Below are positions 2,420-20,071 of a stretch of 22,181 nt of DNA, one piece after another. The stretch comes from a virus. The stretch covers positions 1 to 22,181 of IMG/VR virus record IMGVR_UViG_3300042691_024034. One strand, 5' to 3'. Position 1 is the stretch's first letter. Each line of letters begins with the position of its first letter. A program made the translations under genes and the position numbers. The notes beneath the pieces were generated by a model. The model had not been told where the DNA came from and ran no database searches. It saw only the letters and a program-made list of their open reading frames with translations.

Positions 2420-3026
2420 TGCCGGCCTCCTTCTTGACGGCGGCGTTGAACGCCGGGTTGTTGGCGATGGCGACCAGGTGCTCGCCGGAGAGGTCGGCCA
2501 GCCCTTGGCCTTCCTTGAGCCAGCCCTTGCGGACTAGGACGCGGACGGCGGCCTCGGGGTGGTCGGTGTACCCGCTGGCCTTGGCCGTCTGAGGGGTCTG
2601 GCTGGCCGCCTGAGGCGTTTTGATGGCGGGGGAGGCCGTGAGCCCGTTCCCGTCGAGGTCGAGGTCCACGGAGACACAGCAGGCGGTCTGGACCGATTGC
2701 CGGCGGATGTAGGTCAGGGCGGCGCCGATCTGCTGGGGGCTCATGCCGTCGGCCCGGATGAAGAGCATGCCGCCCGGGAAGGTCGTGCCGTCGCGGTGGC
2801 GGAAGGACGTCTGCACGCCGATGCGGCCGTCGGCCGTTGTGTCCACCACTTGGCAGAGCGCCAGGTTGTGCGCCGCGAGGACGGGCTTCACGGCGTCGAG
2901 CAGCTGGTCGAGGGAGACGTACTTCGAGCCCTTGAAGGCCGGGTTGGACTTGTTGGCGCTGACGTTCTCCAGCGCGTTGAGGGCGGCGACGAAGTCCGCG
3001 TTGGCGTCGGTGGCTTGTTTGCTCAT
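2412..3026 (-). CDS. erf: ERF-family single-strand annealing recombinase
   Basis: This 204-residue protein fits the ERF (essential recombination function) family, which forms rings on single-stranded DNA and anneals complementary strands during phage recombination and genome circularisation. The family pattern is visible in order: NPAFKGSKYVSLDQLLDAVK near residues 27-46, an FRHRDG strand with a following Gly-Gly turn, and the signature PQQIGAALTYIRRQSVQTAC near residues 98-117 followed by an Asp-rich loop (DLDLDGNG). A Pro/Gln/Ala linker then leads to a C-terminal domain of about 60 residues. The start ATG 3026 follows the previous stop by 16 bases, with a CCCAAGCACCC leader and no Shine-Dalgarno sequence. 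The RecE-like exonuclease downstream is the expected partner. Confidence 0.92.
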   Translation of the reverse strand: MSKQATDANADFVAALNALENVSANKSNPAFKGSKYVSLDQLLDAVKPVLAAHNLALCQVVDTTADGRIGVQTSFRHRDGTTFPGGMLFIRADGMSPQQIGAALTYIRRQSVQTACCVSVDLDLDGNGLTASPAIKTPQAASQTPQTAKASGYTDHPEAAVRVLVRKGWLKEGQGLADLSGEHLVAIANNPAFNAAVKKEAGNV

Positions 3027-3042
3027 GGGTGCTTGGGAAAGG

Positions 3043-3276
3043 TCAGTCGAGGTTGCCGTTGTTGGCGGCCGCCGCGTCGATGGTCTTCTGCGTCACGACC
3101 TTGAGGCGGCCGTCGATGCACAGGGACCAGTAATTGAGCTGGCCCTTGCGGCGGGGCTTGAGGGTCGAGACGACAGTGCCGTCGTGCAGGATAAGGTAGC
3201 GGGTGCCCGGGATGGCCACGGGGGGCAGCACCAGGGACTGGGTGGTCTGTTGGTTGGCGGGTAGTTCGGGGGACAT
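3043..3276 (-). CDS. Hypothetical protein, 77 aa
   Basis: The gene starts at ATG 3276, nine bases after the resolvase stop, and ends 16 bases before the ERF start. The N-terminal 20 residues are Gln/Thr/Pro-rich and probably disordered. The remainder has alternating strands (TRYLILHDGTVVSTLKPRRK and NYWSLCIDGRLKVV) and resembles a small beta-barrel or HNH-adjacent beta fold such as a small DNA-associated protein, but I cannot assign a family. The basic run KPRRKGQ would suit nucleic acid contact. The leader (CTTTCCACC) has no Shine-Dalgarno sequence. Confidence 0.75.
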   Translation of the reverse strand: MSPELPANQQTTQSLVLPPVAIPGTRYLILHDGTVVSTLKPRRKGQLNYWSLCIDGRLKVVTQKTIDAAAANNGNLD

Positions 3277-3285
3277 GGTGGAAAG

Positions 3286-3765
3286 TCAGTTGATGGCGCC
3301 ACGCTTGGCGGCGTCGAGGATGAGCAGGGCGTCGGCGTTGGCCAACGTCACCTTGATGGTCTTGTCGGAACCGAAGAGCTCGCCGGCGCGGGCCTTCAGC
3401 TTGTTCTTCCAAGCGGTGGTGGAGAGTTCGCCCTTCGTGCCGACGGGGTGGGCCTTCTGCCAGATCGCGGGGCGGACGCGGTGGACTTCCCAACCGCAGG
3501 CCACGGCCGAGCCGTAGAGCACGCCGGTGTTCCATTGCAGCTTGCCGATGGCCGAGCCGGGGATGTTCTTGCCCGTGTAGAGCGGGGGCTCCTCGAGGTA
3601 GAGCACGACCTTGCTGGCCTGCGTGGTGATGTCGGCCACCAGCTTGCAGACTTCCCAGTCCGTGCCGGGCATGTTGTAAGACGAGAGGCCGAGGTGCTGG
3701 TGCCAGGTCACGATAGCGCCGGACACGCCAGGGTCCACGGCGACAAGCAAAGGATGATTAGACAT
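3286..3765 (-). CDS. RuvC-like (RNase H fold) Holliday junction resolvase
   Basis: This 159-residue protein has the layout of phage RuvC-like resolvases, which cut four-way junctions in recombination or branched DNA before packaging. The first strand carries the catalytic Asp (VAVDPGVSGAIVTW, Asp11). The second acidic position is in YLEEPP (Glu58/59), followed by a Gly-rich helix start. The last acidic cluster is in the helix NADALLILDAAKRG (Asp145, Asp151), as expected for the family. The length is typical. The start ATG 3765 is taken because the fold begins immediately after it; the upstream extension to 3840 is Arg/Ser/Pro-rich and overlaps the transglycosylase gene. It is next to ERF and the exonuclease, which supports a recombination role. 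The leader has no Shine-Dalgarno sequence. Confidence 0.87.
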   Translation of the reverse strand: MSNHPLLVAVDPGVSGAIVTWHQHLGLSSYNMPGTDWEVCKLVADITTQASKVVLYLEEPPLYTGKNIPGSAIGKLQWNTGVLYGSAVACGWEVHRVRPAIWQKAHPVGTKGELSTTAWKNKLKARAGELFGSDKTIKVTLANADALLILDAAKRGAIN

Positions 3766-3772
3766 GGCTCGG

Positions 3773-4204
3773 TTAACGTGTCGCCTTTGCCAATCGGGCG
3801 GCGACGACCTTGGTGATGGTCGGGCAGCGCGAGAGGTCAAACCCTTTCGAGCGGAAGCCTGAGAAGCCGAGCTGGTGCGCCGCGTAGAGCTCGCCGATCG
3901 TCGGGCGGCGGCCGAGGGTTGCGGTCAGGCGGTCCTCGAGCAGGGTCAACCAGGAGGTGGCATAGGCAAGGCCGGCCTCGGGGTCGTGGGCCAGAGCGTA
4001 GGAGTAGACGGGCAGGCCGTGGGCACGGCGCCAGCGGGAGGTGTCGGCCCAAGCTGCGGGGAAGAATTGGCACAGGCCACGCTCCCCGAGACGGCCGACG
4101 GCGGCCGGGTTGCCGGATGACTCGACGCGGATGATGGCGTCACGCCACGCGGGGGAGACTGTCGCCGAGGCGCTGGCCGACAGCAGGAGAAGGAAGAGGC
4201 GCAC
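3773..4204 (-). CDS. Secreted SLT-type lytic transglycosylase (probable endolysin)
   Basis: From GTG 4204, two bases after the previous stop, the frame encodes 143 residues. The N-terminus is a clear Sec signal peptide (MRLFLLLLSASASA, with cleavage after Ala14). The mature part has the soluble-lytic-transglycosylase pattern: catalytic Glu28 in RVESSGNP, then GERGLCQFFPAAW near residues 40-52, and AHQLGFSGF in the place of the usual AYNxG element. Such enzymes cleave the glycan strands of peptidoglycan. The upstream start at 4270 would put Arg/His-rich sequence before the signal and is rejected. The lysis cassette has no other muralytic gene, so this is the best endolysin candidate, although it sits in the recombination operon. 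A virion-associated or entry enzyme is the alternative. Confidence 0.82.
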   Translation of the reverse strand: MRLFLLLLSASASATVSPAWRDAIIRVESSGNPAAVGRLGERGLCQFFPAAWADTSRWRRAHGLPVYSYALAHDPEAGLAYATSWLTLLEDRLTATLGRRPTIGELYAAHQLGFSGFRSKGFDLSRCPTITKVVAARLAKATR

Positions 4205-4206
4205 GA

Positions 4207-4488
4207 TCAGAAGCCGGTGGGGATGATGTCGCCGGTGAAGAGCTCGCCGGTGCTGTCGCGGTAGGACCACTTGAGCAGGGCGCGGCCGGAGGGCGAGACG
4301 TGGGCGTAGACGTTCACGTCAGAGCACCCGAAGAAGATGAGCATCTGCTCGCACTCGTGGGTCTGTTGGTCCACCTGCTGGTTGGCGTACTTGGGGGTCC
4401 AGTCGCCCTGGAGCACGCGGTCACGGGCGAAGACGACGCCACGGGCCAGCGTCTGGATCTCCGTGGAAGGGTTGCCGAGGTTGCTCAT
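4207..4488 (-). CDS. Hypothetical protein, 93 aa
   Basis: The start ATG 4488 overlaps the stop of the upstream gene as ATGA. Between residues 20 and 55 the protein is helical and polar (RGVVFARDRVLQGDW, then a Gln-rich stretch NQQVDQQTHECEQ). It ends in a beta-rich part (NVYAHVSPSGRALLKWSYRD). No family is recognised. The next gene begins two bases after its stop, so the three genes 4811 to 3773 form a tightly coupled block. Confidence 0.78.
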   Translation of the reverse strand: MSNLGNPSTEIQTLARGVVFARDRVLQGDWTPKYANQQVDQQTHECEQMLIFFGCSDVNVYAHVSPSGRALLKWSYRDSTGELFTGDIIPTGF

Positions 4489-4811
4489 CGGGCGGCGGCC
4501 TCGGTTTCCCAGACCTTGAGTTTGGCTTCGGCCTCGGATTTCCAAGCGCCGCGGAACTCGACGATCAGGTCGAAGTGTTCCAGAGACTGGGCGAGCCGGG
4601 CCTTGGTGACCATCGGGGCGAAGTCGCCGGAGGTCGGGGCGTCGTCGATGCGGACGGCCTTCAGTTTCTGGGCGCCGCGGGAGTAGAGGATGCCCCACAG
4701 TTCATAGGCGGAGCGGTCTTCCTTCTCCTTGCGGAAAGAGACGACGAGCTCTTTGGAGGCCTCGAGGCGCTGGGGGTCGGTGACGGGGACGGGTTTGTTT
4801 AGGGACTTCAT
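4485..4811 (-). CDS. Hypothetical protein, 108 aa
   Basis: The gene starts at ATG 4811 directly after a CCAAGCC box. The protein is rich in Lys and Glu, with an alpha-beta pattern and no membrane segment. A helix (SKELVVSFRKEKEDRSAYEL) is followed by a strand (KLKAVRIDDA), then a region ending in HFDLIVEFRGAW and a basic-acidic helix to the end (KSEAEAKLKVWETEAAAR). No family is recognised. It is coupled to the downstream gene through an ATGA overlap. Confidence 0.78.
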   Translation of the reverse strand: MKSLNKPVPVTDPQRLEASKELVVSFRKEKEDRSAYELWGILYSRGAQKLKAVRIDDAPTSGDFAPMVTKARLAQSLEHFDLIVEFRGAWKSEAEAKLKVWETEAAAR

Positions 4812-4818
4812 GGCTTGG
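4812..4818 (-). promoter_or_regulatory. CCAAGCC start-site box of gene 4485-4811
   Basis: This is an exact copy directly before ATG 4811, preceded by a run of C. Confidence 0.5.
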
Positions 4819-4826
4819 GGGGAGAG

Positions 4827-4934
4827 TTAGAACTTCGGGTTGTCGATGATCTCGAGGAGGTTCGGGCCGTCCGCGAGGAAGTAGATGACCGCCGCCAGCA
4901 CGAGGCCGAGGGCGAGGAGGGTGAGGAGTTTCAT
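4827..4934 (-). CDS. Small single-pass membrane protein, 35 aa
   Basis: A frame of 36 codons starts at ATG 4934 and stops at 4827. It encodes Met-Lys, then a hydrophobic helix (LLTLLALGLVLAAVIYFLA, residues 3-21), then a short acidic tail ending in NPKF. The gene has its own CCAAGCC box directly before the ATG, identical to the boxes of the genes on both sides, and it fills the space between them (15 and 22 bases free). Those are good signs of a real gene. The function is unknown. A small inner-membrane effector, or an anchor for a host-directed function, would be consistent with early expression. Confidence 0.72.
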   Translation of the reverse strand: MKLLTLLALGLVLAAVIYFLADGPNLLEIIDNPKF

Positions 4935-4941
4935 GGCTTGG
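4935..4941 (-). promoter_or_regulatory. CCAAGCC start-site box of the 35-aa gene
   Basis: This is an exact copy directly before ATG 4934, and it is the main support for that small gene. Confidence 0.5.
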
Positions 4942-4956
4942 TTGGGGGTTGGGAGA

Positions 4957-5247
4957 TTAGAGGGCGCCGGTGATGCACAGGGCGGTCTCGAGCGTGCTGG
5001 TCTGCTCCTTGTTGATGCGCTTGCCCTTGATGAGCTGCAGGGCGGCGTGGTAGGCCACGCAGGCGATGATGTGGCCGTCGTTGGCGTCCTCGAGGTCGCA
5101 CTCGTAGGCGTCGTGGTCGGCGTAGAGGCCGGCCTTGTAGGTGGCCTGCACCTGGTTGACGTTGCGGGTCTGCTCCTCGACGAGGCGGGCGAGGGCGACG
5201 AGCACGTTGGGGCGCTCGACGATGGTGGTGATGGCGGTGGTGGTCAT
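4957..5247 (-). CDS. Hypothetical protein, 96 aa
   Basis: The start ATG 5247 follows a CCAAGCC box. The protein is mostly helical and mildly acidic. The first helix (NVLVALARLVEEQTRNVNQV, residues 14-33) is followed by a loop rich in Asp, Tyr and Glu (ADHDAYECDLEDANDGH), then a hydrophobic helix (IIACVAYHAALQLI) and a Lys-rich stretch. The Cys/His/Asp residues of the loop could bind metal, but no recognised motif is present. It is the second gene of the operon read from the promoter near 5672. Confidence 0.76.
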   Translation of the reverse strand: MTTTAITTIVERPNVLVALARLVEEQTRNVNQVQATYKAGLYADHDAYECDLEDANDGHIIACVAYHAALQLIKGKRINKEQTSTLETALCITGAL

Positions 5248-5254
5248 GGCTTGG
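5248..5254 (-). promoter_or_regulatory. CCAAGCC start-site box of gene 4957-5247
   Basis: This is the same seven bases directly before the ATG, in a leader of ACCC and ACAC repeats. Confidence 0.5.
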
Positions 5255-5272
5255 TGTGTTGGGTGCGGGTGA

Positions 5273-5644
5273 TTATTCGGCGTTTTCGCGCTTGTGGATA
5301 AGATAGGCCATGCCCTGGAGGTGAATGGTGAACTTCTGGCCGATAGCCCAGCGCTCGGTGATAATCTTGTGGGCCTCCATCATCACGCCACGCTCGAGGC
5401 GGCGCACGATCACCTTGTCTTCGGTGACTTCAAGGGCCGGGCGCGGGTAGGCATCCTCATACGCGACGAACATCGCCATCTCGGCGTCCTCCTTAGCGTG
5501 GAAGGCTTTGCTCCATTCGACCAGCAAGTTCCGGTCGAACTTGTCGTTGAGCTTCTTGTCGATCTTCAGAAAGCGCAAGGTGGCTTCCTTGAACTCCTGC
5601 TTGGTGGCGTCGTATTTGCTAATCAGGTCGGCGTTGTTAATCAT
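5273..5644 (-). CDS. Hypothetical protein, first gene of the leftward operon, 123 aa
   Basis: The start ATG 5644 is preceded by the CCAAGCC box and lies about 20 bases downstream of the predicted transcription start. An upstream in-frame start at 5692 would lie inside the promoter and is rejected. The protein is Lys- and Glu-rich and helical (for example ATKQEFKEATLRFLKIDKKL, residues 13-32), followed by an aromatic helix with AEMAMFVAYEDAY and a C-terminal beta-like stretch. No family is recognised. As the promoter-proximal gene it is expected to be among the earliest and best expressed products of the operon. Confidence 0.77.
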   Translation of the reverse strand: MINNADLISKYDATKQEFKEATLRFLKIDKKLNDKFDRNLLVEWSKAFHAKEDAEMAMFVAYEDAYPRPALEVTEDKVIVRRLERGVMMEAHKIITERWAIGQKFTIHLQGMAYLIHKRENAE

Positions 5645-5651
5645 GGCTTGG
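5645..5651 (-). promoter_or_regulatory. CCAAGCC start-site box of gene 5273-5644
   Basis: The seven bases before the ATG read CCAAGCC on the minus strand, within a C/A-rich leader and without a Shine-Dalgarno sequence. Confidence 0.5.
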
Positions 5652-5671
5652 TGTTGGTTGGAACAGAGATG

Positions 5672-5700
5672 AGTAGACAAGCACCTTGCCAACGGGTCAA
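5672..5700 (-). promoter_or_regulatory. Sigma70-like promoter of the leftward operon
   Basis: Read on the minus strand, TTGACC (5700-5695) is separated by 17 bases from TCTACT (5677-5672). This gives five of six matches to the -35 consensus and four of six to the -10 consensus at the ideal spacing. Transcription would begin near 5665, about 20 bases before ATG 5644. One of three phased TTGCCAA boxes lies in the spacer, so a protein bound there would block RNA polymerase. Confidence 0.6.
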
Positions 5701-5742
5701 CACAATTCTTTTGCCAAGTTCCCGCTCGGGTACTTTTGCCAA
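5686..5742. repeat. Three TTGCCAA boxes with exact 25-bp phasing (operator candidate)
   Basis: The core TTGCCAA occurs at 5686-5692, 5711-5717 and 5736-5742, each exactly 25 bases from the next. The second and third share the longer unit CTTTTGCCAAGTT (5708-5720 and 5733-5745). A further repeat pair, GTTCCCGCTC with a similar tail, is at 5718-5733 and 5768-5783. The first core sits between the -35 and -10 elements of the promoter. Such phased short repeats beside a promoter are typical of a cooperative repressor or activator array. Confidence 0.55.
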
Positions 5743-5783
5743 GTTTATTGCCTTAATCGCCCCTTTTGTTCCCGCTCAGGCAC

Positions 5784-5816
5784 GTCTACATGTCGCCCCA
5801 GACATGTCGATTAGAC
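5784..5816. promoter_or_regulatory. Stem-loop downstream of the late operon
   Basis: The left arm GTCTACATGTC (5784-5794) pairs with GACATGT (5801-5807) and, after a five-base bulge, with AGAC (5813-5816), around a six-base loop. It lies about 15 bases after the last lysis gene stop. There is no T-run on the minus strand, so it may be a Rho-dependent or weak terminator. Alternatively it is an operator, since each half contains the palindrome ACATGT. Confidence 0.4.
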
Positions 5817-5830
5817 CCCTCTGGCTTGCC

Positions 5831-6154
5831 CTAGGAGGCGTTTTGACGGCGAAGGCGTAGGAAGACCGCCACCCCCACCCCTAGGCACCCTACCGACAAC
5901 GCCCAGCCCAAGTCGCGGCAGGCCTTGAGGGCCAGCGTGGCCGACGATAGGTTGCGCTCGAGGTTCTTGTCGTCGCTCTTCGTCCCCGCGTCCGTGATCA
6001 GGAGCACCATGGCCTGCGTGTCCTCGAAGCTGCGCAGGACGAAGTCGCAGATAAAGGCGGACGTGGCGGCCGCGAGCAATGCCGCGACAACCAGGAGGGC
6101 CACGGCCAGCAGCAGGTTGTTATCGGCGCTTGGCTTTTCCTTTCCCGGTGGCAC
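5831..6154 (-). CDS. Two-TM membrane protein of the lysis cassette
   Basis: The start GTG 6154 is chosen because AAAGGAG lies at proper spacing and the long upstream extension is low-complexity sequence overlapping the holin gene. The 107 residues hold a polar N-terminus, a strong membrane helix (LLLAVALLVVAALLAAATSAFI, about residues 14-35), a soluble part of about 45 residues (rich in Asp, Lys and Asn), and a second helix (LGWALSVGCLGVGVAVFL, residues 82-99) ending in the basic LRLRRQ. Its first 11 codons overlap the end of the holin gene. It is probably a second holin, an antiholin or an accessory lysis protein. The topology would leave the central part on one side of the inner membrane. 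No family is assigned. Confidence 0.75.
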   Translation of the reverse strand: MPPGKEKPSADNNLLLAVALLVVAALLAAATSAFICDFVLRSFEDTQAMVLLITDAGTKSDDKNLERNLSSATLALKACRDLGWALSVGCLGVGVAVFLRLRRQNAS

Positions 6155-7829: not shown

Positions 7830-9965
7830 TTAGAAAGAAATCACGACTACCATGCCAGCACCACCAGCACCGCCGGCACCAGACGGAGTCCCGTTGTCGC
7901 TAGCTGCCCCGCCACCACCACCGCCGCCAGGCTGAGCGCCAGCCGCCCCTGCCGTTGAGCCTCCATTCGCGGCGCTTCGGTATCCGCCACCGCCGCCACC
8001 GGTACCGCCAAAGTATGAGGCGACTCCGCTTGTGCCAGTGGTAGGCAACAAAAGCGTGGGCACTCCAGTAGCACCAGATCCGCCAGCAACTGCAGTAGTA
8101 AATCCGCTTGCTCCAGAAACGGCAGCAAATCGGCCACCACCTGCACCGCCTGCACCGCTTACCTGATTGTTTGCAATGTTGCCGCCGCCGCCGCCACCAC
8201 CAGTTGGCAGGTCGAACATGTACCTATCAAAAGCCGAGTTGGTAGGTGCGGCGCCGGTTGTAGTGCTTCCATTTCCACCACCACCAACCTGGCTCAAGTT
8301 CGGCAAGAAATTACCAAGCAGGTTGAATGTGTTAGGAGAATAAGTAGGACCAGTTACTGCTGCCGAGGTGCCACCATTGGCCGCCGTGCTACTTTGCGAG
8401 GCTGTAAAAGTTCCAAAGATTGAAGGCGTACCGATGCCGCCTTGGTTTCCGTTTGTGCTATCGGTAGTGACAGAAGCACCGCCTGCACCGCCTGATCCGA
8501 CAGTAACAGTTACAGTCGAAGCCAATGTCGAAAGCGGAACGAACATTTGGATAAAACCTCCGGCAGTACCGCCGGCGCCGCCGCTTCGAGCTTGAGTGGA
8601 TGGAAGTCGCGAGCCAGAGCCTCCACCATTACCACCTGCCCAGATCTTAACCAAAGCCATCGTTTTACCGGCTGGCTTGGTCCACGTCGCGGTGCCAGGA
8701 GTCGTAAAGACCTGAACATCTGCGCCAGAACCGCCGCCACCGCCGCCAGCCGTGGCCCACACCAAATCCCAGGAGGTATTGCTGGCCTTGCTTAGCACCT
8801 GCCCGGTCGTGCCGCCGGAGGGGACGAGCTTCGTGGCAGGCTCCACCGCCGCAGTCCCGAGCCCGAGGTTCGTCCGGGCCGTCGAGGCCGTGGCCGTCAG
8901 CTCCGAAAGGTTGTTCGCCGTGGCGAGATACGTGGCCGAGGCCGTGGCCGTGGTCAGGTAGGCCGACATGCCCGCCGTGCTCTGGTACGTGGCCGCCGCC
9001 GAGGCGATCGTGAGATAGGGGGCCAGCGCCGTGGCGTCGATGTAGCCAGCCGGGTTCGTCTGGAGGTAGTAGGTGCTCGCCGCCGTGGCCGAGGTCAGCA
9101 GCCCCAGGGTGCCGAAGGACTTGTTCTTCCAGAGGTTCGTGGCCGACTCGTAGGCCAGCAGGTCGTTGTTGGTCTTGCTCGCGATGGCGACGTCATGCAG
9201 TTCGTCGAGCTCGTAGCCGTTCTGGATGCGGACGAGCATCGTGCCCTGATTGGCGTGCGAGCGCTCGATGACCCCGACGTAGACCAGATGGTCAGGAGCC
9301 GAGGGCTTGGTCGCCGTGAAGGTGCCCGCCGTAGTCGGGGAGAGGTAGACCTGAGTGCCCGCCGAGAAGGCCGAGGTGTCGAGGTTCTCCAGCAGGCCGG
9401 AGGTCACCGCGTAGCCGTTCTGGTTGTTCGGGATGTCCTCCAGGAGCACCGCGAAAGTCTGAGCCGAGGTCGCGTCCCCGGTCGCCAGCGCCTTGGTGAC
9501 TGTCACCTTGTTGCCCGCCGCGCCGTTGACGTAGACCACTGTCCCCTGGTCGAGCTGCGCCCCCGTCTCGTTGCGCACTTGGTTGCGGACCTGCAGGGCG
9601 AAGGGGGTCACCCACTGGGTGTTGTAGTTGGTCGCGTCAATCTTGGCGAGGACTTGGCCGTCCGTGCCGCCGATCGGGACGCCCGGGCCCGTCGCACCCG
9701 TCTGGCCGGCGGGGATGCCGAAGTTGAAGACCGCCGCCGAGGAGGTCCCCACGTTGGCCACAGTGGCCGAGGAGCCGGGGGCAAGCGTGGTCGTCGTGCC
9801 CACCGCGATGGTCGCCGCGTCGCCCTGAGCGCCCGGGGTGCCGAGCTCGATGGTCAGGGAGGCAGGCGCCGTCGAGAGGACGGACAGGGCGAGCGTGCTG
9901 TCGCTCCCGTCCACCTCCATGGTCAGGGAGCCCAGTACCAGCGAAGAGACGGAGATGGAGGACAT
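7830..9965 (-). CDS. Tail fibre with C-terminal glycine-rich receptor-binding domain
   Basis: The 711-residue protein begins with a beta-rich anchor (residues 1-85) containing short collagen-like runs (GTPGAQGD near 42-49, GQTGATGPG near 87-95). The middle (about 100-290) has the layout of phage fibre shaft modules. Residues 290-375 have repeated A-x-x-TYL units and the common fibre element TASTARTNLGLG. From about residue 404 the protein is a glycine-rich domain with GGGGGG blocks and the entry TPGTATWTKPAGKTMALVKI, typical of the Gly-rich fibre tip domain. Such tips, as in S16 gp38, are thought to form polyglycine II bundles whose loops select host receptors. Codon use changes sharply at the same point (base about 8755), from nearly all G/C third positions to many A/T. 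The gene follows the small protein at 9969-10283 after three bases. Confidence 0.93.
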   Translation of the reverse strand: MSSISVSSLVLGSLTMEVDGSDSTLALSVLSTAPASLTIELGTPGAQGDAATIAVGTTTTLAPGSSATVANVGTSSAAVFNFGIPAGQTGATGPGVPIGGTDGQVLAKIDATNYNTQWVTPFALQVRNQVRNETGAQLDQGTVVYVNGAAGNKVTVTKALATGDATSAQTFAVLLEDIPNNQNGYAVTSGLLENLDTSAFSAGTQVYLSPTTAGTFTATKPSAPDHLVYVGVIERSHANQGTMLVRIQNGYELDELHDVAIASKTNNDLLAYESATNLWKNKSFGTLGLLTSATAASTYYLQTNPAGYIDATALAPYLTIASAAATYQSTAGMSAYLTTATASATYLATANNLSELTATASTARTNLGLGTAAVEPATKLVPSGGTTGQVLSKASNTSWDLVWATAGGGGGGSGADVQVFTTPGTATWTKPAGKTMALVKIWAGGNGGGSGSRLPSTQARSGGAGGTAGGFIQMFVPLSTLASTVTVTVGSGGAGGASVTTDSTNGNQGGIGTPSIFGTFTASQSSTAANGGTSAAVTGPTYSPNTFNLLGNFLPNLSQVGGGGNGSTTTGAAPTNSAFDRYMFDLPTGGGGGGGNIANNQVSGAGGAGGGRFAAVSGASGFTTAVAGGSGATGVPTLLLPTTGTSGVASYFGGTGGGGGGYRSAANGGSTAGAAGAQPGGGGGGGAASDNGTPSGAGGAGGAGMVVVISF

Positions 9966-10283: not shown

Positions 10284-10297
10284 CCTACCCTTGGCGG
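10284..10297 (-). promoter_or_regulatory. Late start-site box of gene 9969-10283
   Basis: CCGCCAAGGGTAGG directly precedes ATG 10283. The AAGG core has five bases to the ATG, so it could also serve as a partial Shine-Dalgarno sequence. Confidence 0.5.
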
Positions 10298-10302
10298 GGG
10301 GG

Positions 10303-11133
10303 TCAAACCTCGACAGTCGCCCCGCTCGGGTCCTTCGTATAGCCTGACCAGGAGCCGTTCCACGCGGTCAGCTCGGCGCCGTAGTAGGGGTCGGGGAACC
10401 AAGCCGGAGGGCTGGCGGGGTCAACATACTGGAACCCCTCGAAACTAACCGGGGAGGCCAAGGCCATCGGGCCTAGGTGCGTCTGCGTCACGATGAAAGC
10501 AGACCCGTCCCAGATGACGTCGGCCACCTTCCACTTCTGGCAGTTGTAATTGTAGATGGCTTGACCGCCAAAGTTGAAAAGGGTCAAGGTCACTGTGCCG
10601 GCAGGGGTATCAACGTCCTGCAAATTACTGTTATAAAGTTGATAATACTTGATGGTCTGGCCTGCCTGGAATGGTTCGCTCTTGGTGTCCGCGTCAGACC
10701 CGTCCGCCATGATGGCCAGGTAAGGCACGAAGGTGCCGACGTCGTCGTCAGGGGGGCAACCGATGACATACACGCCCCAGTTGTCAGACCCGCCCTCGAC
10801 GCTGGCCGGGTTAATGGAGATATATCCCCCAAGGTCCACCAGCGAGGAGTCGGCCGCCGTCAGCGCGTCCCCGGTGGTCTTGGAGCCGGTCGGGAAGCCA
10901 TAAAACTTTTGGATCTCGAACTGAGAAAGACCGATGACCCAGGCGGCAGTTTTCCGATAAATGGCCGAACGCACGAACCCCTTGCGGCACTGCACGCCCC
11001 ACGCCGACGCACCCTTAAACACGCTGACCTGAAACTGGTCCGGCTCACCCAGCAGTTGCCAGTCCTGAGCAAGGTCCAGCGTGCTGACGCCGTTGGCCGA
11101 CGTGAAGTTGTAGCCTGGTCCTGGCTGGAACAT
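10303..11133 (-). CDS. Tail or tail-tip protein, 276 aa, unknown family
   Basis: The start ATG 11133 lies two bases after the previous stop; an earlier start at 11253 would overlap that gene with low-complexity sequence. The protein is rich in aromatic residues and Gly/Asp, with repeated beta strands (DQFQVSVFKGASAWGVQCRK, PAGTVTLTLFNFGGQAIYNY). The beginning MFQPGPGYNF and the end WNGSWSGYTKDPSGATVEV recall surface-exposed tail tip proteins. Composition has more A/T codons than the head genes. No family is recognised. Position between the tape-measure candidate and the fibre suggests a baseplate or tail-tip protein. Confidence 0.78.
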   Translation of the reverse strand: MFQPGPGYNFTSANGVSTLDLAQDWQLLGEPDQFQVSVFKGASAWGVQCRKGFVRSAIYRKTAAWVIGLSQFEIQKFYGFPTGSKTTGDALTAADSSLVDLGGYISINPASVEGGSDNWGVYVIGCPPDDDVGTFVPYLAIMADGSDADTKSEPFQAGQTIKYYQLYNSNLQDVDTPAGTVTLTLFNFGGQAIYNYNCQKWKVADVIWDGSAFIVTQTHLGPMALASPVSFEGFQYVDPASPPAWFPDPYYGAELTAWNGSWSGYTKDPSGATVEV

Positions 11134-12782: not shown

Positions 12783-12794
12783 CCTACCCTTGGG
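12783..12794 (-). promoter_or_regulatory. Late start-site box of gene 11970-12782
   Basis: CCCAAGGGTAGG directly precedes ATG 12782. The same bases encode the final codons and TAG stop of the upstream gene, so the box is read as protein there. Confidence 0.5.
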
Positions 12795-13320
12795 AGGAGG
12801 TAAAAGCCGCCATGGCCTCCTCGTCCTCGGTGGTCAGTAGGTTAATCTCCGCCCCTTTCATGCCGCTGAATGTCGTCGAGAGCCAGACGGCCTGACACTC
12901 GGGCATAGTCCAGGCACGCTCGTCCGGCACGCCATTTGAGATCAGATTGGCCACCAGATTGAGTATCCAGGGCACGCCGCTGACGCGCTGCTCGATGCGT
13001 TGCGACTCCCAGAACTTGGGCCAGTGGGACTCGAGCATGTAGGTGCGGAAGGCCAGTAGGTCGTTGGACAACCTGTCGTCGTTCTTCGCCCAAAGGTAAA
13101 GCAGGGCCTTGTCCTTCCCCGTCACCTCGTCGATGGGCAGGCCGGCGCATGTCTTGATGGCCGCGAGCATGTGCGCCGTCGTGAACTGGGCCGCCTCGAC
13201 GAAGGGCGAGTTGATGGCGTGCAGGCGTACCCGGTGCCGAAGGCAGAAGGGTGGCAGCCGATAACCGAGGAAGTCTACTTCCTGCGGATCGGTGAAGGCT
13301 AGGATGAAGCGGCGGTCCAC
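12784..13320 (-). CDS. Tail assembly chaperone-position protein, 178 aa
   Basis: GTG 13320 starts nine bases after the previous stop, in a leader with a weak GTAGGG sequence. The protein is mixed alpha-beta with an acidic C-terminal helix (TTEDEEAMAAFTSSQ) and a central helix rich in Leu and Asp (NDDRLSNDLLAFRTYMLE). It sits exactly where lambda-type phages have the tail assembly chaperone, between tail tube and tape measure. I see no clear slippery heptamer, so a G/GT-type frameshift product is not supported. Family assignment remains positional. Confidence 0.6.
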   Translation of the reverse strand: MDRRFILAFTDPQEVDFLGYRLPPFCLRHRVRLHAINSPFVEAAQFTTAHMLAAIKTCAGLPIDEVTGKDKALLYLWAKNDDRLSNDLLAFRTYMLESHWPKFWESQRIEQRVSGVPWILNLVANLISNGVPDERAWTMPECQAVWLSTTFSGMKGAEINLLTTEDEEAMAAFTSSQG

Positions 13321-13704: not shown

Positions 13705-13712
13705 AGTTGTCT

Positions 13713-13726
13713 CTTACCCTTGGCGG
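13713..13726 (-). promoter_or_regulatory. Late start-site box of gene 13330-13704
   Basis: The minus-strand sequence CCGCCAAGGGTAAG lies 8 bases before ATG 13704. Confidence 0.5.
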
Positions 13727-13731
13727 CCCGG

Positions 13732-14169
13732 TCAAGGCGCTAGGACGCAGACCACGGACAGACGCAGGACAGTCGCCCAGGCACCCGTCTGCTCGTCCAG
13801 CCCCTGGTCCTCGGAGACCACAGTCACGTCATACAGGGCCGCGTCCCCTTGGGTCGAGAATGTCGTCGTCATGGCCGTCAGGTCGGAGAGGGTGGCCACC
13901 ATGGCCGCCGCCCGGGCCCGGTGGGTCGTCAGGGTCACGTCGTTGGCGTTGTCGTGCAGGACCGCCCGGACCTGGCAGTCATAGTTGCCAAGGCCGTCGG
14001 GTAGGCCAGCGGGCGTGTTGGCCGAGTCGCAGATCACCACGACCTTGGGCATGGCCGCGTCGCCGGCGTAGTCGCCCGGGTAGATGTTGACCCCCGTGAA
14101 GGTGGCTTCGGCCTGAAGCATGGTCACGAGGTTGCCCTCGACGATGTGGCGGATGCTGGATGTGCCCAT
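13732..14169 (-). CDS. Tail terminator-like (gpU position) protein, 145 aa
   Basis: The protein is an alpha-beta mix beginning MGTSSIRHIVEGNLVTMLQA, with a central acidic and hydrophobic strand (PKVVVICDSA), an Ala/Arg helix (HRARAAAMVATLSDL) and a closing strand pair (AWATVLRLSVVCVLAP). Tail terminators of the U or Stf type have an N-terminal helix followed by a beta sheet, and this layout plus the position (after the gp10/Z-like gene and before the tube candidate) supports the call. Start ATG 14169 has a short leader, ACCACTT, without a Shine-Dalgarno sequence. Confidence 0.62.
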   Translation of the reverse strand: MGTSSIRHIVEGNLVTMLQAEATFTGVNIYPGDYAGDAAMPKVVVICDSANTPAGLPDGLGNYDCQVRAVLHDNANDVTLTTHRARAAAMVATLSDLTAMTTTFSTQGDAALYDVTVVSEDQGLDEQTGAWATVLRLSVVCVLAP

Positions 14170-15524: not shown

Positions 15525-15538
15525 CTCACCCTTGGCGA
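15525..15538 (-). promoter_or_regulatory. Late start-site box of gene 15144-15524
   Basis: The minus-strand sequence TCGCCAAGGGTGAG directly precedes ATG 15524. It lies 7 bases downstream of the terminator T-run. Confidence 0.5.
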
Positions 15539-15545
15539 TTGAGTC

Positions 15546-15575
15546 AAAAAAAAGGGGCCCCCCGAAGGGAGCCCC
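15546..15575 (-). terminator. Intrinsic terminator after the major capsid gene
   Basis: On the minus strand GGGGCTCCC, loop TTCG, GGGGGCCCC form a nine-pair stem with one G-U pair and a UUCG loop, followed directly by eight T. This is a textbook strong Rho-independent terminator. It lies between capsid stop (15598) and the head-closure start, so it would separate head and tail expression unless an antiterminator acts. Confidence 0.92.
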
Positions 15576-15597: not shown

Positions 15598-16464
15598 TTA
15601 GGCGGAGAGGACGCGCTTGAGGTTCGCGCGGCCCTTGGTGGCGCCCATGCGGATGGCGGCCGTCAAGTAGAGGATGCCGTGCGTGTACTCGGACTCGACC
15701 ATGACGGACAGGCCGTTCATGGTGGCGATGCCGGAGTTCGGGGAGGCGGACCAGACCGAGCCGGTGCCGATGCAGATCGCGTCCTTGGAGGCGGCGAAGC
15801 CGACCAGGTTCTCGCCGTTGTTCGGGAGGCCGGCGTACTGCAGGACCTGGAGCGTGCCGATGCGGCCGACGATGCCGGTGCGCACGACGCTGTTGTCGCC
15901 CTGGGTGTTGAACGCCGAGGTCAGCTTGGCGTCCTTGCGGAGAGCGCCGATGTAGGCGGAGTTGAGCACGAGGCCGCGCTCAGCCGGGGCTTCGAGGCCG
16001 TCGAGGTAGACGTCGAGGTCAACCACGTCGTTGTAGTCGAAGTTCGCGGCGGTGATGACTTCGTTGGCCGAGTAGTTGGCGTTGGTCACGACGGCAGCGA
16101 CGGCGGCGTTGACCTTCTTGACGATCTTGGCGACCGCTTCTTCGCGGAAGGCGTTGATGATGCCGTCGGCACCCCAGGCAGCGAGCTCGGAAGCGTCGAA
16201 GCCGCGGGTGGCATGGTAGTGGACGAGCGTCACAGTGGACTTCGTGATATCGGCGTCGCCCGTTTGAGCGTAGCCGCCCGAGGCCTTGTCGAAGACGATC
16301 GCGTCGTCACCGGCGACGAAGGGGACGTCGATGGTGGTGCCGCGGTCTTCCGTGGACTGAGCCATGGTGGTGAAGACGTCGAGGACGGGGAGCTTCGGGC
16401 GGAGGTCGGCGACGATGATGTCGGCGAGCGCGGCCGGAGCGATGTTGAAACCGGAGTTAGCCAT
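15598..16464 (-). CDS. Major capsid protein
   Basis: The 288-residue protein is in the capsid position, after protease and scaffold. The N-terminal part (IAPAALADIIVADLRPKLPV) and the strand-turn pattern TTIDVPFVAGDDAIVFDKAS match the E-loop region of HK97-fold capsids. The spine-helix-like region is GIINAFREEAVAKIVKKVNA (about residues 100-120), and the closing part has beta strands ending GRANLKRVLSA. It is short compared with usual HK97-fold proteins (300-400). Start ATG 16464 has an AT-rich leader without a Shine-Dalgarno sequence. The strong terminator follows about 20 bases after the stop, suggesting that this is a high-expression gene. Confidence 0.88.
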   Translation of the reverse strand: MANSGFNIAPAALADIIVADLRPKLPVLDVFTTMAQSTEDRGTTIDVPFVAGDDAIVFDKASGGYAQTGDADITKSTVTLVHYHATRGFDASELAAWGADGIINAFREEAVAKIVKKVNAAVAAVVTNANYSANEVITAANFDYNDVVDLDVYLDGLEAPAERGLVLNSAYIGALRKDAKLTSAFNTQGDNSVVRTGIVGRIGTLQVLQYAGLPNNGENLVGFAASKDAICIGTGSVWSASPNSGIATMNGLSVMVESEYTHGILYLTAAIRMGATKGRANLKRVLSA

Positions 16465-16498
16465 AGGTGTGATTAGTAGGGATTAGGGTTGGGAAAAA

Positions 16499-16924
16499 TT
16501 AGGAGAGGCGGCCGAAGAGGATGGCGGCCTTGTGCTTCTGCAGGAAGGCCACGCGCTCGGCGCCGGCGGGCATCGCGGCGTACTGTTCCTTGATCTGCTC
16601 GACAGTCGCGGCAGGGGCTTCCTGCTTCTCGGCGGCCACCGGGGTGGTGCCGGTGCTGGCCACGATCTCGGCGGCCTGCTTGGCGGCGGAGACGTGCGTC
16701 AGTTCCAGAGCGGCGACCTTCTCGGCCAGGGCGGCGACCTCGGCGGTCAGCTCGCCGATGCGGGCGTCCTTCGCGGTGAGCTCGGCCTTGGCGGCGGTCA
16801 GCTCGTCGGCGGCGCCGATGGTCAGCTTCTCGACAGTGGCGCGGAGGTCGTCGCGCTCGGTGAGGAGGGCGGAGGCGGCGACGCGGAGGTCGGCCAGTTC
16901 AGCTTCGGGAGTCAGCTTGCTCAT
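16499..16924 (-). CDS. Nested scaffold start (Nu3-like), 141 aa
   Basis: An in-frame ATG at 16924 begins MSKLTPEAEL and would give 141 residues consisting only of the coiled-coil and C-terminal tail. Before it lies CCCAAGTTTAAGAACACC, very like CGCCAAGGTTAAGAACCGACC before the connector gene at 19932. That makes internal initiation plausible, by analogy with lambda, where scaffold Nu3 is made from an internal start. In lambda the host gene is the protease; here it is a separate gene. This is inferred from the motif only. Confidence 0.5.
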   Translation of the reverse strand: MSKLTPEAELADLRVAASALLTERDDLRATVEKLTIGAADELTAAKAELTAKDARIGELTAEVAALAEKVAALELTHVSAAKQAAEIVASTGTTPVAAEKQEAPAATVEQIKEQYAAMPAGAERVAFLQKHKAAILFGRLS

Positions 16925-17308
16925 GGTGTTCTTAAACTTGGGGGACTGGTCAAACGCGCTCGCCTCTTCCTGGTCAAGTTGCTCGGCCTTGCGCTCCGCC
17001 CAGTCGCGGGCTCGCATGATGTCGCCGGAGGTCGGACCACCCCACAACGCCCACGCCACCGCGCCGGCTCCAGGGAAGTCCTCGTTGTCGGGCTTGTTCT
17101 TCGGGGCGTCCATGTCGGCCTCGTGCCGGCGGAACCACGGCCCCATGCGCCGCACCTTGTCCTTGGAGATCCTGCCGGCCACCATGTCGCGGGCCTCACG
17201 CAGGGTCTGCTCCGTCACGCCGTCGCCTGACTTGCCTTCCTTGTGCCAGTCCAGGCCACGCTGCGCGGCCTCGCTGACGTACGACGGGACTTCGACCTCG
17301 AGGGGCAT
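16499..17308 (-). CDS. Scaffolding protein with extra N-terminal module, 269 aa
   Basis: The first 110 residues carry a conserved-looking module (SYVSEAAQRGLDWHKEG, RARDWAERK and the element FPGAGAVAWALWGGPTSGD at residues 78-96), recalling a module of RMxxWFxRHE and AWxLWGG type that I associate with several phage structural proteins. From residue 129 (MSKLTPEAE) the protein is a long coiled coil (EERDD-type helix with ATVEKL, LTAKDARIGEL and VAALAEKVAALEL), then a flexible Pro/Ala/Glu/Gln region and a C-terminal helix ending HKAAILFGRLS, the typical capsid-contact tail of a scaffold. The start ATG 17308 overlaps the protease stop by one base (TGATG). Confidence 0.82.
   Translation of the reverse strand: MPLEVEVPSYVSEAAQRGLDWHKEGKSGDGVTEQTLREARDMVAGRISKDKVRRMGPWFRRHEADMDAPKNKPDNEDFPGAGAVAWALWGGPTSGDIMRARDWAERKAEQLDQEEASAFDQSPKFKNTMSKLTPEAELADLRVAASALLTERDDLRATVEKLTIGAADELTAAKAELTAKDARIGELTAEVAALAEKVAALELTHVSAAKQAAEIVASTGTTPVAAEKQEAPAATVEQIKEQYAAMPAGAERVAFLQKHKAAILFGRLS
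16931..16943 (-). promoter_or_regulatory. Internal start-site box before the nested scaffold start
   Basis: CCCCAAGTTTAAG lies six bases before ATG 16924, matching the late box with G to T changes. It decides in favour of the nested start. Confidence 0.45.
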
Positions 17309-18099
17309 CAGAAGGACGCGAGCGCTTCCTCGAAGGAGTCGGCCAGCCCGGTGGCCAGCCCAAGCTGCACGGCCTTCTTGCCGGAGAAGGTGCCGCCCGT
17401 GAAGGCATCCTGCGAGACGTTGATGCGGGTCTGCTTGATGGACTGCATGAACTCCTCGTCGATGTCGTCCACCTGCGCCTGAAGGTCGGCCAGCTGCGCA
17501 TCGGTCAGGGACGTGCCCTCGATGCCGGCGCCCTTCAGCGGGGACTGGCGGGACTTGATGACCACCATCTTCACGCCCGCGTCGCCGTAGGCCTTGGAGA
17601 AGTCAGGGATGGCCATGTACACGCCCACGCTCCCGACGGAGCCGGAGGGCATGGCGACCACCCGGTCGGCGGCGGCGGCCAGCCAGAGGGCGGCGCTGTT
17701 CGCTTCCTCCGCGTAGGCCATGGTGGGCTTCTTCATGCGGCGGATCTTGGCGGCCAGCTCAGGCACGCCGGCGACAGTGCCGCCAGGGGAGTTGACGCGG
17801 AAGGCCACCTTCTTGACGGAGGGGTCGGCCTCGAATGCGTCAATGGCCACGCTGATGGCGTTCACGTCAGTGGCGCCGAGCATGCTTTCAATCGGGGACA
17901 CGCCCCGGCCGATGGGGCCGTCGATAGGGATGACGCCAACGCCTTCGGCGGTGACATGCGCCACCGGGCGCTCGCCCAGGAGCTTGGCCAGCACGTCGGA
18001 GAAGGCGTACTTGTCCAGGCGGGCAGAGTACTCTGCGGCCTTGGCCGGGTCGATGAGCATGGGCTCGCGGCCCTTGAGTCCGTTGGTAAGGAAGCGCAT
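17308..18099 (-). CDS. S49-family prohead protease (gpC-like)
   Basis: The 263-residue protein matches signal peptide peptidase A-like phage proteases, which mature the capsid by cleaving scaffold and portal. In order it has the strand GVGVIPIDGPIG (53-64), the oxyanion-type turn RVNSPGG (101-107), the nucleophile in ANSAALWLAAAADRVVAMP (Ser135), the SVGSVGV element (154-160), and the lysine partner in IKSRQSPLKGAG (Lys189 best fits the usual distance of about 50 residues). Unlike lambda C it has no scaffold tail; scaffold is encoded by the next gene. The start ATG 18099 is six bases after the portal stop. Confidence 0.93.
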   Translation of the reverse strand: MRFLTNGLKGREPMLIDPAKAAEYSARLDKYAFSDVLAKLLGERPVAHVTAEGVGVIPIDGPIGRGVSPIESMLGATDVNAISVAIDAFEADPSVKKVAFRVNSPGGTVAGVPELAAKIRRMKKPTMAYAEEANSAALWLAAAADRVVAMPSGSVGSVGVYMAIPDFSKAYGDAGVKMVVIKSRQSPLKGAGIEGTSLTDAQLADLQAQVDDIDEEFMQSIKQTRINVSQDAFTGGTFSGKKAVQLGLATGLADSFEEALASF

Positions 18100-19932: not shown

Positions 19933-19940
19933 GGTCGGTT

Positions 19941-19954
19941 CTTAACCTTGGCGG
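19941..19954 (-). promoter_or_regulatory. Late start-site box of the gpW-like gene
   Basis: CCGCCAAGGTTAAG lies 8 bases before ATG 19932. It also lies just downstream of the inverted-repeat element. Confidence 0.5.
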
Positions 19955-19966
19955 AGAAGTAAAGGG

Positions 19967-20040
19967 GGACAGACCGGGGGTTCCAAGCACCCGAGGCGCC
20001 AAGCCATCAGCACCCCAAACAACATTTCCCCGGTCTGTCC
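19967..20040. repeat. 13-bp perfect inverted repeat in the terminase-connector spacer
   Basis: GGACAGACCGGGG at 19967-19979 is exactly complementary to CCCCGGTCTGTCC at 20028-20040, with a 48-base loop that can itself fold (GGGUGC with GCGCCU on the RNA). In RNA on the minus strand the two arms give a strong GC-rich stem. A T-run does not follow. The 139-base gap holds no other clear signal. A 27-codon frame (20025-19942) starts in the loop and ends within the late box, but has no independent support. It could be a structured RNA, a regulatory element or a protein-binding site. Confidence 0.7.
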
Positions 20041-20071
20041 TCGGGTTAACGTGACCGCCTTCTGCCCTTCG

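Follow-up and report, generated by a model that had tools for sequence, protein, structure and literature searches.

The window analysed here, the whole 22,181 nt of IMG/VR virus record IMGVR_UViG_3300042691_024034, carries on its minus strand the gene order TerL, gpW-like, portal, S49 protease, a 269-codon gene, and major capsid protein (MCP) (Table 1). Within the 269-codon ORF, ATG 16924 is in frame and opens 141 codons (MSKLTPEAEL...), exactly the pair of ORFs described in the first-pass annotation of this DNA. The long product begins MPLEVEV and the nested product (M)SKLTPEAE. The protease is an ORF of its own whose stop codon shares one base with the start of the long gene (TTCTGATGCCC), and because that start sits on the protease stop and has none of the start boxes described below, it is probably used by translational coupling. 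ATG 16924 is preceded by CCCAAGTTTAAGAACACC. In the N-terminal part of the long protein, column conservation stops at about residue 112; the nested protein's long helix begins at its residue 6. This places ATG 16924 at the boundary between an N-terminal module (N-module) and a coiled coil, where it had been placed from the sequence at first reading.

Table 1. Features of the nested gene, its neighbors and the start boxes in the window
Feature	Position	Strand	Basis or remark
Full-length gene, 269 aa	16499..17308	(-)	ORF; N-module + linker + scaffold module
N-module, residues 1-120	16949..17308	(-)	phrog_2859-type domain
Nested gene, 141 aa, predicted scaffold	16499..16924	(-)	ORF, AlphaFold model, stand-alone homologs
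TGATG overlap of protease stop and full-length gene start	17306..17310	(-)	1 nt overlap, no box
Stand-alone S49-type head maturation protease	17308..18099	(-)	Pfam PF01343 1e-20; phrog_53 6.9e-54
MCP	15598..16464	(-)	phrog_283 4.8e-13
Nested-gene start box and leader, GTTTGACCAGTCCCCCAAGTTTAAG-AACACC	16925..16955	(-)	28.8 bits, scaffold-free model
gpW-like gene box (ATG 19932)	19933..19965	(-)	33.8 bits
126-aa gene box (ATG 15524), directly after MCP terminator (15575-15554)	15525..15549	(-)	21.2 bits
124-aa gene box (ATG 13704)	13705..13737	(-)	30.1 bits
270-aa gene box (ATG 12782), over last codons of preceding gene	12783..12807	(-)	17.8 bits
104-aa gene box (ATG 10283)	10284..10308	(-)	27.6 bits
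Intrinsic terminator after MCP, 9-bp stem + T8	15546..15575	(-)	T run abuts 126-aa gene box

An AlphaFold model of the nested protein (m1772a72ea3eb; mean pLDDT 86) has one long helix of 86 residues (6 to 91) followed by short C-terminal helices (108 to 137). Scaffolds of tailed phages are mostly helical or coiled-coil proteins encoded between protease and MCP, and the nested protein, as modelled, has both properties. Its position, its helical fold and the absence of a rival candidate point to the nested coiled coil being a scaffold with a coat-binding end. Pfam and phrog profiles gave no match to known scaffolds for the nested protein, which would suit a different head protein, such as a decoration or internal protein. 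We consider that identity unlikely: in every relative the coiled coil is encoded after the maturation protease and before the MCP, its predicted structure is a single long helix with a short C-terminal helical unit, and no other scaffold candidate is found at that place.

The N-module shows 80% mean column identity and about 60 invariant columns across 37 relatives, and is thus under strong constraint. Its only profile match is phrog_2859. Elsewhere its fusion partners are prohead proteases, portals, XkdF-like proteins and an MCP gene (BFVD matches are among the sources), and since these are several different head proteins in other phages, it can be regarded as a widespread companion of head genes. 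In Roseobacter phage CRP-831 (L083, positions 2968-5889), a 974-aa gene annotated as MCP consists of the N-module followed by protease-like and MCP regions. No solved relative of the N-module was detected by sequence, nor by fold with a model of pLDDT 71 (no match below E = 2).

A scan of IMG/VR identified 80 related loci; these are often fragments and include many near relatives, so that the counts given here are not counts of independent events and correspond to roughly a dozen lineages. With the query split into N-module (residues 1-120) and scaffold module (residues 129-269), four arrangements were found. The scaffold stands alone directly behind the protease in 20 loci with a readable start (L081, which is the window in reverse, was left out of this count); N-module and scaffold are joined, as in the window, in most remaining loci; a HAD phosphatase-like domain is joined to the scaffold in L037, L038, L039, and L054; and N-module, HAD domain and scaffold are combined in L069 and L072-L079. 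On comparison of these loci the slot upstream of the scaffold is variable: it is empty, or holds the N-module, the HAD phosphatase-like domain, or both. The HAD module (positions 3724-4140 in L037) replaces or follows the N-module and is always in frame with the scaffold. Across L037-L039, L054 and L069-L079 it contains DIDDT/DIDGT, LTNRP, and FIDN motifs; it scores just under the cut-off for Pfam Hydrolase_6 (7.5e-6; 26.4 against 27 bits) and matches the phrog_415 polynucleotide kinase at 5.8e-9, phage polynucleotide kinase families being its nearest relatives. Its motifs are those of an active phosphatase, and it is a candidate phosphatase-like enzyme.

N-module and scaffold share a single open frame wherever both are present (54 of 54 loci); at loci whose junction can be read, the long start lies on the protease stop with a -1 overlap in 47 of 54. 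The stand-alone genes of the 20 close relatives, whose scaffolds are 77-94% identical to that of the window, all begin at the residue that matches M129 of the window's long protein. Their leader has the form (C/G)TTTGACC-N5/6-CCAAGTTTAAGAAC-N1-3-ATG, with the core AAGTTTAAGAAC-N1-3-ATG unchanged in all 20. Mostly the scaffold frame contains a stop upstream of the start (TAA, within TTTAAG, three codons ahead of the start), and the stand-alone leader is therefore noncoding. One of these relatives, L034, is 99% identical to the window in the protease, 94% in the scaffold module and 95% in the MCP, and has no N-module. In the HAD-scaffold fusions the same leader is coding, one extra base (AACATC) opening the frame. 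Fusion of the scaffold to a module upstream of it is also seen in about 12 more distant lineages.

The leader of the nested gene (CCCCCAAGTTTAAGAACACC-ATG) had been noted in the first-pass annotation for its resemblance to that of the gpW-like gene (CGCCAAGGTTAAGAACCGACC-ATG). The resemblance holds, but the shared element is longer than proposed there, has two parts, and precedes six genes rather than two. Its form is about TT[G/T]ACC-N7-CCAAG[G/T]-N-TAAG (consensus about TCTTTACC-N6-CCAAGGTTAAG), with halves separated by 12-13 nt, not 17. We scanned the window with a 25-nt weight matrix built from 20 nonscaffold sites of these phages at a threshold of at least 8 bits; scaffold sites were excluded from training, and some sites used for training have the same sequence as the window's gpW-like and 124-aa gene sites, so that the scores of those two are not independent. 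Exactly six sites were found in the whole window, all on the minus strand and 0-8 nt before an ATG. Shuffled sequence yields 0.4 such sites per strand, and a score of 28.8 bits from a scaffold-free matrix is therefore not a chance match at the nested gene. All six boxes precede ORFs of the head and tail (virion) gene block, and none lies in the recombination/early half; in the long contigs L086-L091 and L100, the matrix scan places boxes at the same gene set. Some box copies have partial inverted-repeat character (CTTGACC-N10-GGTTAAG). A long inverted repeat, GGACAGACCGGGG...CCCCCGGTCTGTCC (positions 19950-20060, minus strand), lies between TerL and the box of the gpW-like gene, in a region with a predicted folding energy of -47.7 kcal/mol for 110 nt.

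No box was detected at the protease, portal, or MCP starts, the MCP leader reading AATCCCTACTAATCACACCT. This MCP leader (positions 16465-16498, minus strand) is nearly free of G and rich in CTAAT/CCCTAA repeats (e.g., CCCTAATCCCTACTAATCACACCT). It is kept in all lineages, does not resemble the box, and is possibly a separate strong start signal.

In distant phages, whose scaffolds are 35-60% identical to that of the window, the box sequences differ from the window's. Within one such phage, the gpW-like, 126-aa, 124-aa, and 270-aa genes have a common box variant, and in most lineages the scaffold ATG inside the fused gene bears the variant of its own phage. Thus the gpW-like and scaffold sites read TTGCCAATTAACGCAGGACTAGA and TTGCCAATTTCCGCAGGACTAGC in L075, and CCCGAACTGACGGGCAATAGTAT and CCCGAACTGCTCCGCAATAAGTAT in L012; the 124-aa gene and scaffold sites read TTGCCCGTTCCCGCAGTTTCAAAGACT and TTGCCCGCCCCCGCAATTTTTAAGACC in L046; and in a thirteenth lineage, L103 from a Verrucomicrobiota metagenome-assembled genome (MAG), the corresponding pair, compared by eye, is GTTTTTACTCCCTGCCCATAGTTAT-ATG and GCTTTTTACTCAGCCCCCACTTTT-ATG. 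In a rank test, the 30 nt leading up to the internal ATG were compared with the other leaders of the same phage, all other stretches of that length in the locus serving as controls. The median fraction was 0 for lineages B, G, I, J, K, and V, the true value being unmatched by controls in the median locus, followed by 0.002 (F), 0.009 (H), 0.027 (C), 0.039 (D), 0.052 (E), and 0.187 (M, a single locus); in C, D, E, and M the internal box is weakly like the other boxes. The linker peptides vary along with the box (SPKFKNT, ANSRRT, LPAPAIFKT, FDQSRNN), and because they change as the boxes change, the constraint falls on the nucleotides. Among these comparisons, the lineage-wise co-variation argues most strongly for use of the internal start. 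Loss of both the internal ATG and the box in relatives had been named beforehand as an observation that would contradict a nested gene; relatives have kept the ATG and a box.

Two other explanations of the leader can be weighed against this pattern. Only the full-length protein might be made, with ATG 16924 and its leader left over, as a relic, from a scaffold gene that stood free until a recent fusion to an upstream module; the closest relatives do have a free-standing gene with the same leader, and the fusion in the window could be young. This is nonetheless improbable, since about 12 diverged lineages have fused forms as a rule and each retains the internal ATG, the internal ATG mostly bears the lineage's current box variant, which a relic would not track, and the nested site scores as highly as those at free-standing genes. 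It is more improbable still, to the point of being hardly credible, that the leader is conserved only for the peptide it encodes between N-module and scaffold, be it a linker or a protease cleavage site. The leader is translated in fused genes and a cleavage site would be plausible there, but the 20 stand-alone relatives have an identical core, located past the protease stop and in most cases with an in-frame stop, so that noncoding copies oppose this role; the same DNA also precedes five unrelated genes, and the linker peptides differ by lineage while the DNA tracks each lineage's box.

As to how the box works, sequence comparison leads us to lean towards a DNA-level late promoter, which would give mRNAs with a very short leader or none. 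We regard as possible, at a lower level of confidence, that the internal start is real and the box acts instead on translation, through ribosome recruitment or an RNA-binding regulator. The closeness of the box to the ATG (0-9 nt) and the AAGG at a Shine-Dalgarno-like distance in several copies would agree with action on translation, and the start-associated sequences (SAS) of cluster K mycobacteriophages have been viewed likewise (PMC3203893). Against it, the scaffold copy has AAGT and has lost the AAGG, which rules out a Shine-Dalgarno explanation for that copy; the left half, held at fixed spacing, is about 30 nt upstream, farther than ribosomes usually make contact; the distance from box to ATG differs among genes; and the 126-aa gene box follows directly on an intrinsic terminator and its T run, where new transcription would be needed. 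A T run precedes this box in most lineages. An RNA hairpin was also considered and rejected, the scaffold copy being less like an inverted repeat and its leader folding weakly (-3.6 kcal/mol). We did not detect any sigma-70 promoter with 16- to 18-nt spacing between positions 9900 and 20300.

The likeness to lambda C/Nu3 that the first-pass annotation had drawn is borne out, including its provisos that the host gene is a different one and that the protease stands alone: the scaffold is predicted to arise from an internal in-frame start in the 3' part of a longer gene, whereas the host gene is not the maturation protease, the S49 protease being separate. It differs further in that the long product consists of N-module and/or HAD domain plus scaffold, and in that the internal start bears a box common to five other ORFs of the virion block. 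Our literature search on scaffold genes with nested products or internal initiation yielded nothing beyond lambda-type cases.

The SAS and their extended form (ESAS) in cluster K mycobacteriophages comprise a short element upstream of several starts, with subcluster-specific extended variants (PMC3203893). Like them, the box of the window is a repeated element directly upstream of start codons (at six of six sites). Unlike them, it does not conform to the consensus GGGATAGGAGCCC, is two-part with fixed spacing, precedes head and tail genes, and occurs also inside a reading frame; at most it resembles SAS in the way it works, without belonging to that class. The nearest cultured phage by portal, at 23% identity, is Verrucomicrobia phage P8625 (NC_029047; L085). 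Its gp8 and gp15 starts share the promoter-like TTGACA-N17-TATTGG-N7-ATG, which would give leaderless mRNA and speaks for the promoter reading of the window's box, although its sequence and spacing are unlike those of that box; these starts, at 5408-5447 and 10732-10771, carry an inverted repeat GTATC...GGATAC. P8625 further differs from the window in having a Clp-type protease and C-terminal coiled coil in one gene, the lambda type. The portal similarity to P8625, together with two Verrucomicrobiota MAG contigs that carry the N-module, makes Verrucomicrobiota the probable host of the virus in the window.

Taken as a whole, the 269-codon gene very probably specifies two proteins, as first proposed: a coupled module-scaffold and a 141-aa scaffold from the boxed ATG 16924. 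The frame kept in 54 of 54 loci, the 47 long starts on the protease stop, and the internal box, which is either retained or present as the variant of the phage concerned, are the reasons why selection appears to maintain both products. The long protein would start on the protease stop codon (TGATG), with the N-module joined in frame to the scaffold, and the short protein, the scaffold proper, at ATG 16924 under its own box. From the arrangement of these signals we infer that both proteins are made and what their ratio would be: the strong box would give many plain scaffold molecules and coupling fewer module-scaffold molecules, that is, an excess of the plain over the long form. The module-scaffold would then coassemble with plain scaffold, bringing the module into the procapsid. 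Engineered P22 scaffold-cargo fusions act in this manner, the protein joined to the scaffold being carried into the procapsid (PMC9962691); those fusions are man-made, whereas the one in the window is natural, with the same action predicted. Tentatively, and with considerably less confidence than in the two products themselves, we suggest that this is a natural scaffold-cargo system of a family of Verrucomicrobiota phages, in which the scaffold would serve as the address tag for interchangeable modules (the conserved head-gene module, the HAD phosphatase-like enzyme, both, or none) and an in-frame late promoter would supply the excess of plain scaffold.

These phages would thus use the lambda C/Nu3 trick with a nonprotease partner that differs from phage to phage, whereas the nested start is retained; this combination suggests a slot of general use for bringing proteins into procapsids. 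In phages of this kind, gene callers will overlook the true scaffold. Each lineage's box variant may reflect the specificity of a putative late regulator, for which the co-varying box is a ready-made assay; the nested site would test that specificity at a place where the nucleotides, and not the amino acids, are conserved.
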